NCBI GenBank assembly: GCA_021795795.1 | Contig: JAJYPA010000240.1 | Span: forward strand, 1 to 11,226 | From: Pseudomonadota bacterium | Lineage (GTDB): Bacteria; Pseudomonadota; Gammaproteobacteria; Halothiobacillales; Halothiobacillaceae | DNA length: 11,226 nucleotides | Direction of reading: 5' to 3' | Shown here: in pieces, positions 1,845 through 11,151 of the stretch | How positions within the stretch are numbered: the first letter of the stretch is position 1 | Layout of the letters: each line of letters begins with the position of its first letter | Translations under genes and position numbers: made by a program | The notes under the pieces: model-generated | What the model was told of the DNA's origin: nothing | The model's database searches: none | What the model saw: the letters and a program-made list of their open reading frames with translations, nothing else

Positions 1845-2195
1845 ATGGAAAGCACAAAGCTCACTCAGCGTCTAGGAGGGTACATTGAAGCAATACAGGC
1901 CGCACGCGCCGAGGGGGTGACCTGGCGGCAGTTGGCGGTGTTGTTTGGTGCCGAGCCGAAATACTTTCATGCAGCTGTTAGAAAAGTGGTAAAGGCGGGA
2001 AAGCATGTTGGGCGGGAACAAAAGCCTTTGCCAGATACAGAACGCGCCGCGAGGCCTGTGCCTGTTGGTGTACAGGCAAAGGAGAACACGGTGACCGCCC
2101 CACGGCGGCCGCTGCCGAGAGTAGGAAGCAGTAACGAAGGCGAAGGCAGTAATGAAGCGGCCAGGGCGATCTTGGCGAACGTTCCCAAAATATAG
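1845..2195 (+). CDS. small helix-turn-helix protein, first gene of the ParA-type operon
   Basis: 116 residues. The ATG at 1845 is chosen over the in-frame TTG at 1794 because it has a near-perfect AGGAGGTG site seven bases upstream. Residues about 15-50 (RAEGVTWRQLAVLFGAEPKY and on) look like a helix-turn-helix; the basic segment KVVKAGKHVGREQK follows, then a low-complexity Pro/Arg/Ser/Glu tail. By position (first, directly before a ParA-type ATPase and next to repeats) it matches the DNA-binding partner of plasmid stability or mobilization operons such as StbA or MobC; homology to either is not established here. It probably binds the repeats at 1658-1730 and represses its own operon. Its stop overlaps the ribosome-binding site of the next gene. 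Confidence 0.8.
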   Translation: MESTKLTQRLGGYIEAIQAARAEGVTWRQLAVLFGAEPKYFHAAVRKVVKAGKHVGREQKPLPDTERAARPVPVGVQAKENTVTAPRRPLPRVGSSNEGEGSNEAARAILANVPKI

Positions 2196-2205
2196 GAGAG
2201 TAGAG

Positions 2206-2943
2206 ATGAAAACTTTATATTTGAGTCACGGTGATAAAGGCGGATGCGGTAAAAGTGTGCTGGCAATGCTGATTGTTGAGCATTTATTGGCCGATGGGCA
2301 AAAGGTGCATCTGGTTGAATCGGACCCGAGCCAGCCCGACCTAGCCGCGCGCTATGCAGATGACCGGGAAATTGTTAACGGTTTTCTGTCGCTCAATAAA
2401 GCGGGTGATTCTGAAAACGCGGTTTCCAAGTTTAATACTTGGCTTGAGGATTGCCGTGGTGAAAATGTGGTGGTCAATTTGCCGGCCGGGGCCTCTGAAA
2501 CGCTGGACAGCTTAGGCGATTTATTGCTGGATGTTTGTGACACGTTGGGTTATCGGTTGGTTGTTACTTACTCGCTTGAGAAAAACGGCATGGCGGCAAA
2601 CATGTTGGAAGGGAGCCTTAAAAACGGGTTAATGAGCGTTGTTGCTCCAGAAAACCGTTTTGTCGTTTACCCGCGCTTCAAAGGGGAACCTAGCGACTTT
2701 GCATGGTTTTCACATCCGGCGCGGGATCAATACGATGCCGGTGAAATTGTAATCCCGGAGATGAAAAATACGGATGCGTGGACGGTTTTGGAGGCAACCC
2801 CAGGTCGCCTTGGTGTTCTTTCTGATAAGAGCATAGCAATTCCTTCGGGCTGGAGAGTCACCAACCAGGCCAGCGTTTTTCGTTTCTACAAAGCGGCCAT
2901 GGATGCCATAGCACCGCTGTTTATTGTTCACGAGGAGAAATAA
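2206..2943 (+). CDS. ParA/MinD-superfamily ATPase, StbB/MobD-like in context
   Basis: 245 residues from the ATG at 2206, with AGGAG at 2194-2198. The N-terminus carries a deviant Walker A motif, KGGCGKS (residues 11-17), including the signature lysine K11 of the ParA/MinD/SIMIBI class. LVESDPSQPD (37-46) matches the following switch motif, and VVVNLPAG (88-95) is the Walker B-like strand, with Asn91 where most members have Asp. No N-terminal HTH is present, so it belongs with the short ParA-type proteins. Such ATPases position plasmids or promote mobilization. It sits second in a tight operon, 10 bases after the HTH gene and one base before the next gene, so it likely works with both. Confidence 0.85.
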   Translation: MKTLYLSHGDKGGCGKSVLAMLIVEHLLADGQKVHLVESDPSQPDLAARYADDREIVNGFLSLNKAGDSENAVSKFNTWLEDCRGENVVVNLPAGASETLDSLGDLLLDVCDTLGYRLVVTYSLEKNGMAANMLEGSLKNGLMSVVAPENRFVVYPRFKGEPSDFAWFSHPARDQYDAGEIVIPEMKNTDAWTVLEATPGRLGVLSDKSIAIPSGWRVTNQASVFRFYKAAMDAIAPLFIVHEEK

Positions 2944-8100: not shown

Positions 8101-8712
8101 CAGCATTTTCCTTTCAGCTTTCTGCCCATCTTGATCAAAGTAGGTGCGCTGAATCCCAACAATCTGACCCGATTTTTGCATCGGTGCCAGCATCAGGCCG
8201 TCTTTCCCGATGCGAGCTTGGCGGCTCCAGTGATCCAGGTGGGCGACGCCAAGGCGGGCAGCCAGGTATGCCCTGACAGTATTACGCTGCTGCTCAATCT
8301 TCGTGCGCTGGCGGCCTTTCTGACCAGCAGGCAAACCTTTATCCCATCCTGCGGGCAAGTCAGTCGCATGGGTGCATGTCCAGCCTGCACCCCATATACG
8401 CTGTGCGGCATAAGTGGTAGTAGAGCCTGAACCCTGCCCGCCGAAGGCGGGGTGTGCAGGGGCGATAGCCCCTGCTGGCACTTGAGCATTGATCTGGCGC
8501 AAGAGGCTGGCAGCGGTGCCGCCCTTGCCGGTAGCCGCATCCAGGTACACCCCCTTTGCGGGGGTGATCTTGATGTGGTGGTGACCGGCGCCATGCAGGT
8601 CGGCGTTGATCTGCCGCCCCTCGACTTGAAAAGGAATTCCTTTCTCCTGCAGGGCACTGATCACCTGATCCACGGTAAAGGTTTTGGCGGAGTTTGGAAA
8701 TGAGCGGCTCAT
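5110..8712 (-). CDS. Toprim primase fused to an SF2-type helicase, replication protein
   Basis: 1200 residues. The ATG at 8712 is chosen because GGAGGT lies six bases upstream and the start overlaps the previous stop as ATGA; 31 further upstream codons are open but unsupported. Residues 12-75 form a small N-terminal domain. Residues 228-310 are a Toprim domain: LLLGEGWETT with the acidic GEG (232-234) and VDRDES with D288/D290, the metal-binding residues of DnaG-type primases. PTTGTGKST (433-441) is Walker A; Cys494, 500, 515 and 518 form a cluster; LVILDEHF (597-604) is a DEAH-like Walker B; QAIGRARG (963-970) is SF2 motif VI with arginine finger. A cysteine cluster between motifs I and II recalls the iron-sulfur site of XPD/DinG helicases. 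It likely primes and unwinds the element's DNA. No zinc-finger primase N-terminus is seen. Confidence 0.88.
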   Translation of the reverse strand: MSRSFPNSAKTFTVDQVISALQEKGIPFQVEGRQINADLHGAGHHHIKITPAKGVYLDAATGKGGTAASLLRQINAQVPAGAIAPAHPAFGGQGSGSTTTYAAQRIWGAGWTCTHATDLPAGWDKGLPAGQKGRQRTKIEQQRNTVRAYLAARLGVAHLDHWSRQARIGKDGLMLAPMQKSGQIVGIQRTYFDQDGQKAERKMLGTHGVQVLPPPPRVAPRDLGIGKALLLGEGWETTAAAVQATGWSGICAYDGGGMVKWAEQQAIQAKGLTPEQVAQAPAVVALVDRDESQAGQKASARAVRILRAAGLKAFYAIPPSPENGGPKGGKKGSDWGDYPREGISADILAAHLALAIAHGDQEMPEVEDPGMILSRPVQIRNWRPAQNPQASAQTRPTQEVRANLQTALQETVAAYLEWMKDNRQPFHPVLMMPTTGTGKSTAAKALTRHAAGLRLEAGRLCVFVPDHDQAGEYAAEGFFHFWGRNPEPDSPAYCPNHAACQEAMKKGHVSQAEVCKSCSNGFAWQIDYYTDGRGQTAKTKTAREKVAKAKSILAARGLDWGKVTPCVWQSHLRDALEAQFLVAASGSYSHSLTRDSLVILDEHFEPGKGVNVTLQDIDHWIRRNQGIIEYMEKTGGDADALARYQQAGEFFRAMAMAMAGWAGKTGAISVDTTLLEAIKGILEAARKSSKADIALAGWERLQFNAAGEMSDNPLRAAHAIAESLQFGDGFVDNGELIVAHSLPVMERLAGGQPTVIMDATPDPVILDVVQAQGGQIINAIARQNVKITRYPTRFWGLTPLNVKRSGAERRDREVQKYESLMKHHGEAAAFLFHKKAHDELLEVVEADGQKYKIRKGGGPMERLGYWGRHHRAHNQWKDKPLIIVGSFFPPLETWRAMYQVSRIAALSAGANPENWPAWQDDMQTVADEWICEGDTEVQCRLPLPADRRIRNWLMNRVTSETVQAIGRARGANAENTIDIHIYGGAPLHGLWQHGLTVTEYADDPECLGHTKAEHMQDMQEERGASLARLDVLAARVISMGQTVTRAALEAEAVEMQATGTDGPQRPVNTGLCQGGYNIHTTPAQRESAHGQIFTMPHERVVQEWFATRAPILSQHLSTTGRNARVVKAAQEAAQCFGEEMVKEALQMADLLFKSTGGDADRLAEIAWNTIEHGDVTNIELVAARLVLETLGRTEGVPPPW

Positions 8713-9416
8713 GGCTGCACCTCCAAATCCCAGCCAAGCTGCTGATTTTCCTGCAAAATCACTGGCGCGGAGCCAACCCCACCGGAAAATTTGTCCAGAC
8801 TGCAATGCTCATCAACCCAATCCTGCCGCTCTTTTACCCCCCTCAATTCTGGTTTTAATTTGTGGAAAGTGGCATAAATTGCCCCGTCGGTTTTCTCAAC
8901 TTTTTCGGCGATTTCCTGAATGGACAGGCCATGCTCAAAACTCAATTCTAGGACTTCCCTATCTCTGGGTTTCAACTGATTTTTGAGCTGGAGCAACCGT
9001 TTAACCTGTTGCTCCCTTTCACTTTCCCCATCAAGCTGCCCAGGCGAAAATTCCGTGAATTTTTCAGCAAAATTGATCAATGGCATGGGCCATTTTTTAG
9101 ATTCTTTTTCTGGCTTAGCCTGGAAGCGGGGAGCAAGTTGGTGCTCGTCCACCGTCATAGCTGCCCGCTCACCCAGGAGCGGGGTCTCGGCATCGACAAT
9201 CCCCGCAGGGCCGTCAATTTTTGGCATGGTCAGCCCACAGGCCCACTCAGATCGGGTGGACCTGTTCATTTCCCCTCGGGCTAGCATGGCCGCCCTGGGA
9301 TGATCCAGGGTCAAACCCCATTTTTTGATTTTAGATAGGGCCAGATAAGCGCTGGCCAAGTCTGATTTGGCCAGCTTGGCAAACTCTTGCATTTGCTGCA
9401 GATCGGGGGTCCTCAT
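8709..9416 (-). CDS. sigma-70 region 4-like HTH protein, coupled to the primase-helicase gene
   Basis: 235 residues from the ATG at 9416, with AAGGGGG upstream. Residues 148-191 (LKPRDREVLELSFEHGLSIQEIAEKV and on to KLKPEL) closely follow the sigma region 4 pattern: a 'R-D-REVLEL' helix, then 'SIQEIAEKVEKTDGAIYATFHKLK' as recognition helix-turn-helix. The first 130 residues match no sigma region 2 and hold no recognisable domain; 130-147 is charged and helical. It is therefore more likely a DNA-binding regulator or initiation partner than a full sigma factor. The gene overlaps both neighbours by four bases (ATGA), so it is translationally coupled to the primase-helicase and probably acts with it. 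Confidence 0.8.
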   Translation of the reverse strand: MRTPDLQQMQEFAKLAKSDLASAYLALSKIKKWGLTLDHPRAAMLARGEMNRSTRSEWACGLTMPKIDGPAGIVDAETPLLGERAAMTVDEHQLAPRFQAKPEKESKKWPMPLINFAEKFTEFSPGQLDGESEREQQVKRLLQLKNQLKPRDREVLELSFEHGLSIQEIAEKVEKTDGAIYATFHKLKPELRGVKERQDWVDEHCSLDKFSGGVGSAPVILQENQQLGWDLEVQP

Positions 9417-9967
9417 GCCGCACCCCCTTGCTTCACAAGGGCAATCCGGGGGCGGCCTACCTTCTTGCGGCTGGCGGCCTGGGGTGCGGGTTTGACGGTA
9501 TGCGCAGGGCGGTCAGCAAGCCATGCCTGGACTGCCTGGGGGGTCCACCTGGGTCCACGGGCACCAGGGACAGAGATTGCCCGGGGGAGAAGCCAGGGGG
9601 TCTTACTATAGATGTTCTGAACGGATTTTTTGGAGATTTTGAGCAGATCGGCAAGGGGTGCCTGATCATAAAGTCGCTCGGGGTCGGGGTCATCAGAAGA
9701 ATTGCCGTCGCCGGATTTTGCCGAAGACCGACTGCCCTCGCCACCACGGCGGGCACGGGGGACGCGGTGGATCGCAACAACGCGGGCGGGCTTGGGTTTG
9801 GGGTTGGCTTTGCGCGCTTCCTTGAAGTCCATTTCTGCAAGCCACTGGCGGATATTGCTGATAACCCCGTGTTTTTTATCGCTGCGGATCGCGGAGTCTC
9901 GGTTTTTTCTGTCCTGGTAAAGCTGCGCTGGGGTTTTGGGTGCTCCGGATGCTTGGATCTTCTTCAT
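9413..9967 (-). CDS. AlpA/excisionase-like winged-HTH protein, first gene of the replication operon
   Basis: 184 residues from the ATG at 9967, chosen for its AAGGAGA site; an upstream ATG at 10009 has AGGGAG directly against it and is less likely. Residues 98-153 (RLYDQAPLADLLKISKKSVQNIY to RWTPQAVQAWLADRP) fit the short winged-helix pattern of AlpA, Xis and pyocin-activator-type proteins: helix, turn, recognition helix, Pro-containing wing, then W-x-x-x-x-V-x-x-W-L. Residues 51-95 are a basic then Ser/Gly-rich linker, and RKKVGRPR (168-174) near the end resembles an AT-hook. Likely a regulator of the operon and possibly an excision factor acting at the att region. Its stop overlaps the next start by four bases. 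Confidence 0.78.
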   Translation of the reverse strand: MKKIQASGAPKTPAQLYQDRKNRDSAIRSDKKHGVISNIRQWLAEMDFKEARKANPKPKPARVVAIHRVPRARRGGEGSRSSAKSGDGNSSDDPDPERLYDQAPLADLLKISKKSVQNIYSKTPWLLPRAISVPGARGPRWTPQAVQAWLADRPAHTVKPAPQAASRKKVGRPRIALVKQGGAA

Positions 9968-10007
9968 GTAAATCTCCTTTTCGCTTTTTGTTCGTGATCG
10001 TTTTTGC

Positions 10008-10064
10008 ATCTCCCTTTTTAAGCGACCCGGCCACCCATTTCGAATAGCCGGGCTTAAAGGAGAT
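10008..10064 (-). promoter_or_regulatory. long imperfect hairpin in the leader of the replication operon
   Basis: CCCGGC (10026-10031) pairs with GCCGGG (10047-10052). With small bulges the stem extends outward through AAGC/GCTT, TTT/AAA, CC/GG and ATCT/AGAT to 10008 and 10064, about 18 pairs. It falls in the roughly 120-base transcript leader between the promoter at 10095-10122 and the start at 9967. It could attenuate transcription or gate translation; no T-tract follows on the minus strand. Confidence 0.55.
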
Positions 10065-10372: not shown

Positions 10373-10957
10373 ATGGCGACGTTTAGTCAAACGAAAGACA
10401 GGGACGGCAATCCGATTGGTTGGCAGGTCATGATCAGGCGGAAAGGGTTTCCGCCAATGTACAAAACATTCAGGGCAAAGCGCGATGCCATGGCGTGGGC
10501 AACTCATGCTGAAAGCCAAATTCTTGCGCGACGCGATGCGCTGGATGTTGCTCAATCAGTCGGGCGGCGTCCGATCATTGGTTATCTCGATGATCTGGAC
10601 AGAGACGCGATCATGAGCGCCGTGTCTTTATTGAGCGATGGCAAGGCTGGCCAGCCCGGCGATGTGTACATCGCTCTATCGTCAGCGTTGGGTTGGCGGC
10701 AGGTCAAGATCGGGCGCACGGTCAATGTTGGCCAGCGTATGCGTGACCTGTCACGCGATACCGGCGTGCCGGAAGCGTTCAGTGCCGTTTACCACAAGAA
10801 GTTTGCCGACGCTGCCCTGGCCGAGTCGGTCATGCACGAGGTCTTTGCCGACCGCCGCATGAATGAGAAGCGGGAGTTTTTCGCGGTTCCGGTCCAGCAC
10901 GCAATTGAGGCCTTGGATCTGCTTCATGGTGTGATGACCGGCGGGCGGACACACTGA
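10373..10957 (+). CDS. integrase arm-binding N-terminus fused to a T5orf172-type GIY-YIG domain
   Basis: 194 residues from the ATG at 10373, with GGAG eight bases upstream. Residues 1-53 (MATFSQTKDRDGN, GWQVMIRRKGFPPMYKTF, KRDAMAWATHAES) match the three-strand-plus-helix arm-DNA-binding start of proteobacterial tyrosine integrases. Residues 54-95 are a linker. Residues 96-172 fit the GIY-YIG/T5orf172 family: DVYIALS for the GIY strand, VKIGRT for YIG, Arg122 in QRMRDLSRDTGVP, Glu151 and His155 in ALAESVMHEVF, and REFFAV. There is no R-H-R-Y integrase catalytic domain. It lies next to attR, where an integrase usually sits. The likely activity is sequence-targeted DNA cleavage or binding, perhaps at the arm sites just downstream. 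The fusion reading rests on motif pattern only. Confidence 0.8.
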   Translation: MATFSQTKDRDGNPIGWQVMIRRKGFPPMYKTFRAKRDAMAWATHAESQILARRDALDVAQSVGRRPIIGYLDDLDRDAIMSAVSLLSDGKAGQPGDVYIALSSALGWRQVKIGRTVNVGQRMRDLSRDTGVPEAFSAVYHKKFADAALAESVMHEVFADRRMNEKREFFAVPVQHAIEALDLLHGVMTGGRTH

Positions 10958-10978: not shown

Positions 10979-11046
10979 GCGCTCAATTTGCGCTCAATCG
11001 AGTATGGGAATGGCAGGGAATATAAGGGAATGGCATAACGCATAAC
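10979..11046. repeat. phased direct repeats beside attR, candidate integrase arm sites
   Basis: GCGCTCAAT at 10979-10987 and 10990-10998 (11-base period); GGGAAT at 11006, 11016 and 11026 (exact 10-base period, the outer two extended as GGGAATGGCA); CATAAC at 11034 and 11041. Short phased repeats between an integrase gene and the core att site are typical arm-type binding sites. Confidence 0.65.
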
Positions 11047-11101: not shown

Positions 11102-11151
11102 ACCGATTCGTAATCGGTAGGTCGGAGGTTCGACTCCTCTCGCCGGCACCA
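11102..11151 (+). other. attR: 3' half of tRNA-Thr(CGT), remnant of a split tRNA gene
   Basis: The 50 bases fold as the 3' part of a tRNA: anticodon arm ACCGA-TTCGTAA-TCGGT with anticodon CGT (threonine), variable loop AGGTC, T-arm GGAGG-TTCGACT-CCTCT, acceptor strand CGCCGGC, discriminator A and encoded CCA. No D-arm or 5' acceptor strand (GCCGGCG) occurs upstream, so this is not a whole gene. It is the duplicated tRNA end left by site-specific integration; the intact tRNA should lie at the other end of the element. tRNA-Thr(CGT) genes are known integration sites, for example thrW in E. coli. Confidence 0.85.

Follow-up and report, generated by a model that had tools for sequence, protein, structure and literature searches.

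What would a nuclease do with the DNA-binding arm of an integrase? Near one end of a stretch of 11,226 nucleotides, which we refer to as the window, an open reading frame (10373-10957, forward strand; 194 amino acids) encodes both: an N-terminus like the arm-binding domain of tyrosine integrases and a C-terminal domain of the GIY-YIG nucleases. It lies beside the attR site of a mobile element. We propose that it encodes a chimeric, att-directed nuclease of Acidithiobacillus ICEs, which would exclude rival elements with another class of arm boxes. From the sequence comparisons, we give this explanation a probability of roughly 50%. More broadly, the chimera is real and tied to att, and a role in conflict between elements is plausible.

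An integrase arm joined to a T5orf172 nuclease

The original prediction was that a T5orf172-type GIY-YIG domain follows the N-terminal domain, and two Pfam models agree: T5orf172 matches residues 98-183 (1.2e-12; 48.6 bits vs. a gathering score of 20) and MUG113 matches residues 111-182 (3.7e-13; 50.3 bits vs. a gathering score of 22.3). Both scores are above the curated cutoffs, which places the protein in the T5orf172/MUG113 subfamily. The five catalytic-type residues that are listed for this domain in Table 1 are invariant in 25 of 25 sequences. By reading the motif, we take R122 and E151 to be equivalent to the catalytic arginine and glutamate of Odn (Gp88; PMC8263062), and the domain is predicted to cleave DNA. 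Two defense-related families from PADLOC have a related GIY-YIG domain: the candidate family PDC-S57 matches residues 96-186 (2.5e-21), and PD-Lambda-1 matches the GIY-YIG domain (4.6e-4). However, only the nuclease domain matches these families, and the arm lies outside the matched stretch.

The N-terminus is that of an integrase, as predicted. Residues 1-52 are 43-58% identical to the N-termini of integrases from Acidithiobacillaceae (considering matches below 1e-8; the best is 4.6e-14). Integrases that share this N-terminus carry the integrase catalytic domain, PF00589 (all three that we scanned, L042, L014, and L023, and also proteins P0036-P0045), while PF00589 is absent from the fusion protein, where the Pfam scan gave T5orf172 and MUG113 only. 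Integrase arm-binding domains typically consist of a three-stranded sheet and a helix. When the arm was modeled by itself (mean pLDDT of 83.7), the predicted fold was of this kind, with strands at residues 2-8, 14-21, and 29-33 and a helix at 36-52. The HMM searches that were suggested along with the original prediction recognized the nuclease part but not the N-terminus: no Pfam model matched residues 1-55 when they were searched alone. Similarly, Foldseek with both models of the fusion protein's structure found no match at E ≤ 0.001, and a search of PDB by sequence found no useful match. From its homology to the integrases, residues 1-52 are expected to bind arm boxes.

Table 1. Features of the window
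Feature	Positions	Strand	Evidence
ParA/MipZ-like ATPase, in a plasmid-like gene set	2152..2943	+	weak (5e-4)
Probable primase-helicase, 1231 residues	5110..8805	-	Toprim_3 domain (6.5e-9) and DNA-primase-like stretch (phrog_510)
Sigma-70 region 4-like protein, adjoining the excisionase-like gene	8709..9416	-	1e-9
Excisionase-like DNA-binding protein, diverging from the nuclease gene	9413..10009	-	phrog_597 (DNA binding protein), 3.3e-8; phrog_66 (excisionase and transcriptional regulator), 5.7e-4
Arm-binding domain, tyrosine-integrase type (residues 1-52)	10373..10528	+	identity to integrase N-termini; arm-only model
Linker (approximately residues 53-94), with GYLDDLDRDA	10529..10654	+	homolog alignment; model confidence low at 64-73
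T5orf172/MUG113 GIY-YIG nuclease domain (residues 95-194) and stop codon	10655..10957	+	Y99, K112, R122, E151, H155
Two integrase arm boxes, GCTCAA ... GCTCAA (starts 10981 and 10992, 11 bp apart)	10981..10997	+	box class also at L008
GGGAAT, three copies at 10-bp spacing; candidate excisionase sites	11006..11031	+	pattern scan of 29 genomes
attR core, 3' half of tRNA-Thr(CGT)	11102..11151	+	resemblance to the complete gene at L042 and L165

The gene is at attR, and the integrase is at the other end

The gene was predicted to lie directly before candidate arm sites and attR, and this is what we see: a pair of GCTCAA boxes begins 23 bp past the nuclease gene, and the 3' half of tRNA-Thr(CGT) lies further on (Table 1). 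ARAGORN found no tRNA in the window, and a search of the window against Rfam gave nothing useful. The window covers the attR end of a related element, and that element's own integrase lies outside the window.

The closest named relative of the protein (85% identity) is at locus L001 of A. ferrivorans DSM 22755 (genome G001). At the attR of G001, the order is the nuclease gene, arm boxes, three copies of GGGAAT, the 3' half of tRNA-Thr(CGT), and then the chromosome. The contig with the nuclease gene also encodes a MobF relaxase. The intact tRNA-Thr(CGT) is on a separate contig (C17), where 111 bp separate the tRNA from the start of an integrase gene, and DotA/TraY and TraD-like genes lie beyond the integrase. 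Support for the two contigs of G001 being the ends of one element comes from another genome (G005). There, a single contig carries the left flank of G001 (93.9%), tRNA-Thr(CGT), and, about 3.2 kb beyond the tRNA, the right flank (93.7%). Its attR (L001) and attL (L008) have 51 exact bases in common, and GCTCAA boxes are present at both of its ends, as they are beside the window's gene. We therefore read it as an ICE that has the integrase at attL and the arm-nuclease at attR.

The gene was also said to occupy the usual position of the integrase, which is not correct. In G001, the integrase is at the opposite end of the element, beside the intact tRNA. This is the layout of most of the integrase loci that we compared, and the nuclease gene points at attR instead. 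We ruled out that the nuclease gene is the element's integrase, given that a full one is present at the other end of the related element. The full integrase also counts against the suggestion of an unconventional route of integration, as does the absence or decay of the nuclease gene at most of 12 attR ends (see below).

As to the rest of the window, the relatives of the Toprim_3 protein include one at L052 that is 75% identical, while the one at L001 is only 26% identical.

Homologs of the fusion protein

A first protein search found 22 homologs, 18 of which span 75-100% of the query. A profile search found 72 proteins, including five further near-full-length ones (P0023-P0025, P0027, and P0028). 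The near-full-length homologs are from Acidithiobacillus, from one metagenome-assembled genome (MAG) of Acidiferrobacteraceae (P0027), and from metagenomes. An arm-like N-terminus is present in 22 homologs (P0001-P0017, P0023-P0025, P0027, and P0028, which starts late), while P0018 and P0026 are without one. As for the remaining proteins from the profile search, we read ten sequences in part and judged the others by their coverage and their Pfam labels (nuclease domain or integrase). By this partial reading, P0019-P0022, P0033, P0034, P0037, and P0046 have no arm.

When we compared the armless P0018 to 369 genomes of the class, 11 loci matched, and the ten that are outside of G001 match only from P0018's residue 38 onwards. 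Six arm queries found nothing at E ≤ 0.1 at those ten loci. Among plasmid records, there were 13 partial matches to the fusion protein, all beginning at residue 67 or later; among phage records, there were none. IMG/VR scans with the fusion protein, with its alignment, or with the GGGAAT pattern gave no useful match. Separately, within the same bacterial family, L047 and L048 (in G007 and G010) encode other T5orf172-type proteins, in which the nuclease domain comes first and an integrase arm is missing.

The nuclease gene is present at some attR ends only

We drew a GGGAAT pattern from the first attR ends and, allowing up to 3 mismatches, found 11 sites in 9 of 29 genomes; a reversed control pattern found 0. 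With the window, this gives 12 attR ends, 8 of which were collected through the pattern itself. (L166, an attR that was found otherwise, lacks the pattern.) The nuclease gene is intact at two of the 12 ends (the window and L001), and at two others, a coding remnant is clearly visible at that position (L043 and L044), so the predicted link to att holds. At L066, L068, and perhaps L071, we see by eye only a short stretch that resembles the region of the gene's stop codon, and the remaining ends of this sample have no recognizable trace of the gene. In L064 and L052, the excisionase-like gene and the attR boxes are present with no nuclease gene between them. Since the gene is intact at just 2 of 12 ends, it is an accessory of this type of attR, and its benefit cannot be strong or constant.

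This patchy distribution might instead reflect a free-standing homing endonuclease, whose arm would find attR sites that lack the gene, after which repair would copy the gene in; a mismatch between the arm and the nearby boxes would then mark a resistant donor site. The nuclease family is that of phage homing enzymes that swap their DNA-binding domains (PMC10448857). Also, some attR ends have the gene and others do not (it is missing from L064 and L052), the gene is just 23 bp from the arm boxes, and there are decayed copies at L043 and L044. Between the window and L001, the gene and attR form one block of 856 bp with 80% DNA identity, while four neighboring proteins are just 26-54% identical. 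On the other hand, copying in the att region of another box class would presumably leave boxes that the recipient's integrase does not read. Furthermore, among the attR ends that we compared, no closely related pair of alleles with and without the gene shows a precise insertion point. Overall, we consider homing to be unlikely. Both homing and the exclusion of rivals need foreign att DNA to be cut.

Since the GGGAAT repeats are also present at attR ends that lack the nuclease gene, we rejected them as the nuclease's own site. They accompany arm boxes of several classes at attR ends and are likely to be excisionase sites. We also noticed that at L052 (9700-10300), elements are stacked at one tRNA-like 3' end: the attR of a window-like element (with the 75% identical replication protein) abuts an integrase gene that is broken and belongs to another box class.

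Integrase arms predict arm boxes

At many integrase loci, a six-base direct repeat with 11-bp spacing lies between the tRNA and the integrase gene. We placed 56 of 78 integrase loci into 12 box classes, by eye and with the protein sequences in view, which might bias the assignments. An exact 11-bp pair is present at 47 of the 56 loci, and at another 8, there is a box that is not part of an exact pair; the last (L006) has none in the 130 bases that we checked. The other 22 of the 78 loci were left out (loci with GGTACA boxes and short arms, loci whose arms have insertions or whose boxes are unclear, and others).

Once three short or cut arms and the duplicates had been taken out, we had 47 integrases, with 44 in classes of at least two. 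Assigning each integrase to the class of its nearest neighbor by arm residues (leave-one-out) recovered the box class for 38 of 44 (using 14 positions that we chose) or 40 of 44 (using positions 4-33), and shared descent contributes to both results. With shuffled labels, the fraction recovered had a mean of 0.10 and a maximum of 0.34. The most informative positions were 20, 5, 30, and 28.

The boxes at attL and attR were the same in 9 of 9 pairs that we assembled. Four of these pairs are each on one contig (L064/L009, L044/L023, L066/L066, and L166/L111), one was paired by synteny (L001/L008), and for four, the two ends share a tRNA and a genome (L067/L012, L070/L082, L071/L084, and L068/L075); the window, L043, L052, and L069 are without an assigned integrase. 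In 8 of the 9 pairs, the att cores have 30-57 identical bases in common. For L068/L075, the longest common stretch is the box pair itself. At L066, the integrase gene is broken, and the second of the attL boxes reads GCAGCA instead of GCTGCA.

The window's arm does not match the class of its neighboring boxes

If the fusion protein bound the boxes beside its own gene, then we might expect its arm to resemble those of GCTCAA-class integrases. It does not: the window's arm agrees with the three GCTCAA-class integrases at 4, 3, and 3 of the 14 chosen positions, as compared to a mean of 10.3 for pairs within a class (minimum 6) and a mean of 5.4 for pairs from different classes. By both measures, GCTCAA is last or tied for last among the 12 classes for the window's arm, and it is about eighth and tenth for L001's arm; the argument from mismatch is based on these two loci, whose arms are nearly the same.

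No integrase class matches the window's arm well. The best single integrase at the chosen positions is L017 (GCCCAA, 7 of 14), the best class mean is 6.0 (GCCACA, which is the single integrase L016), and the closest integrase over the whole arm is also L016 (23 of 35). So, the target class cannot be named, and the correspondence between arms and boxes may not carry over to this arm. Nevertheless, these comparisons favor a target other than the element's own GCTCAA boxes.

Because the window's arm is outside the class that reads the neighboring boxes, the likely targets would be other box classes. We propose that the recognition sheet (approximately residues 1-35, of the tyrosine-integrase arm type) would dock on arm boxes that are 11 bp apart, and that the tethered T5orf172 GIY-YIG domain would nick or cut beside them. 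The foremost target would be the attP of an incoming circle from an ICE of another box class, and attL and attR would probably be targets as well. The resident element would exclude rivals without cutting itself. The original prediction offered this exclusion as one of three roles, and it fits the best, given the arm's mismatch and the working precedent of Odn, which has the same nuclease family (PMC8263062).

Another of the three roles, competing with the integrase as a regulator, fits less well. The protein would compete with its own element's integrase for the boxes of attP or attR, and the nuclease fold would be structural or would nick during excision. The gene's location suits a regulator: it is beside attR with boxes 23 bp downstream, and judging by gene order, it would read toward attP and int in the excised circle. 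Also, I-TevI is described as both a homing endonuclease and a transcriptional repressor (PMC10448857). But the arm is unlike those of the GCTCAA class, a mere competitor would not need invariant catalytic-type residues, and an intact copy is present at only 2 of 12 attR ends. We think a regulatory role is quite improbable.

Alternatively, the arm might read GCTCAA by other contacts and exclude elements of the same type, and the integrated copy would escape either through regulation or because, in attP, both arms are on one molecule. GCTCAA boxes are certainly near the gene, and another family member, P0007, shows that arms of the family can be equal to those of integrases in a box class (see below). 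Besides the poor match to the GCTCAA class (3-4 of 14), this would have to contend with G001, which has a second GCTCAA element (on C6) together with an intact nuclease gene. Exclusion of the same type of element seems very unlikely.

We also considered GCCACA/GGCACA as the target, based on Met20, and rejected it: among the integrases, such a methionine is present only in L016 and, by eye, in L111. Across 398 genomes of the phylum, a codon pattern for Met20 had two matches, the nuclease gene of G001 and a sequence that is not an integrase, and a longer form of the pattern had no match in IMG/VR. Pairs of GSCACA at this spacing occur 61 times in 22 of 29 genomes (3 are in G001), vs. 17 for the reversed pattern.

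A faster-changing arm

We compared the two parts of the protein across 20 sequences (the window's protein, P0002-P0017, and P0023-P0025; P0001, P0018, and P0026-P0028 were left out). Over the 190 pairs, the mean identity is 53% for the arm (residues 3-35) and 74% for the nuclease (residues 95-190), and the arm is less conserved than the nuclease in 170 pairs. For example, P0002 and P0012 are 48% identical in the arm and 89% identical in the nuclease domain, and P0006 and P0011 are 55% and 91% identical. The window's protein and P0002 show the reverse (97% for the arm vs. 83% for the nuclease). (The homolog alignment had seemed to have no invariant residue in the arm, but this is an artifact, as P0018 lacks residues 1-50; we used pairwise identities instead.)

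At the DNA level, the first 15 codons are identical between the window and L001, while codons 53-95 are 68% identical. A 28-codon stretch with only 4 changed codons was equaled in 26 of 20,000 shuffles. It looks as if the arm-coding end has been exchanged, with constraint as the alternative explanation. The arm of P0007 is identical at 34 of 35 residues to that of the integrase L078 (class GCCAC/GCCAT), including all 14 of the 14 chosen positions. The donor of the arm domain was presumably a rival element. The variability of the nuclease arms correlates with that of the integrases (Spearman 0.83), and since the variability of the integrases alone does as well as the class information (also 0.83), the correlation adds nothing.

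Might the gene just be a passive hitch-hiker, inert or decaying, that is carried along with the att module? The remnants at L043 and L044 could be read that way, as could the lack of an intact gene at eight other attR ends. However, 22 homologs have an arm-like N-terminus and an open frame, the five key residues are invariant, and change is concentrated in the part that would recognize DNA. We give a hitch-hiker almost no credence.

Comparison to known systems

The closest precedent for an att-directed nuclease that excludes rivals is Odn (Gp88) of phage ICP1. In Odn, the nuclease is of the T5orf172 family, and the N-terminus has 42% identity to the DNA-binding domain of RepA from the rival element PLE1 (PMC8263062). 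Odn cuts the rival's replication origin, and mutants in its conserved glutamate lose the effect. Its authors described it as the first case, to their knowledge, of a captured sequence-specific DNA-binding protein that is fused to an endonuclease and acts against the source genome. The fusion protein has the same make-up: a C-terminal T5orf172 domain joined to an N-terminal DNA-binding domain of a type that belongs to another mobile element's own protein (43-58% identity to the integrase arm here, vs. 42% to RepA_N). Unlike in Odn, the borrowed part is an integrase arm, and the predicted target is an att site rather than a replication origin. Also, the family is carried by ICEs instead of a phage, the arms vary within the family, and the activity is a prediction from sequence.

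Phage homing endonucleases of the T5orf172 family are modular and have an exchangeable DNA-binding part, as the protein's family seems to; those parts are mostly of the zinc-finger CapR/DUF723/DUF4397 types, and the genes are often near essential phage genes (PMC10448857). In contrast, the fusion protein has the beta-sheet arm of an integrase and its gene is at the attR of an ICE. The tyrosine integrases of Acidithiobacillaceae (such as L008 and L023) share its arm sequence and its location beside att sites with arm boxes, but in the fusion protein, the nuclease replaces the PF00589 domain, and its gene is at the opposite end of the element.

The nuclease family was already known, and so was the principle of a chimeric anti-element protein, from Odn. 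An integrase arm as the address was not found in print: in open-licence papers from PMC, judged partly by title among the matches listed, there was no fusion of an integrase arm to a GIY-YIG/T5orf172 domain. (Earlier work on the mobile elements of Acidithiobacillia includes PMC10561277.)

If our explanation is correct, then the fusion protein is a further case of the Odn principle, in another kind of element and with the integration site as the target. Tentatively, and with odds that we would put somewhat against it, the ICEs of Acidithiobacillus may contest att sites with arm-guided nucleases that are aimed at other box classes by exchangeable recognition sheets from integrases, and this pressure may help to split the boxes of a single bacterial family into a dozen or more classes. 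Such a contest makes it testable why the arm sites of integrases diversify, and also how tRNA sites are shared or fought over by ICEs. Because the nuclease family is diverse, the rule that the arm decides the target could be tested with natural variants. As for the integrases themselves, arm residues predict the arm boxes across the Acidithiobacillaceae loci (L004-L111), possibly by a recognition code that is centered on positions 5, 20, 28, and 30, and this correspondence may help to read an integrase's specificity from its sequence.
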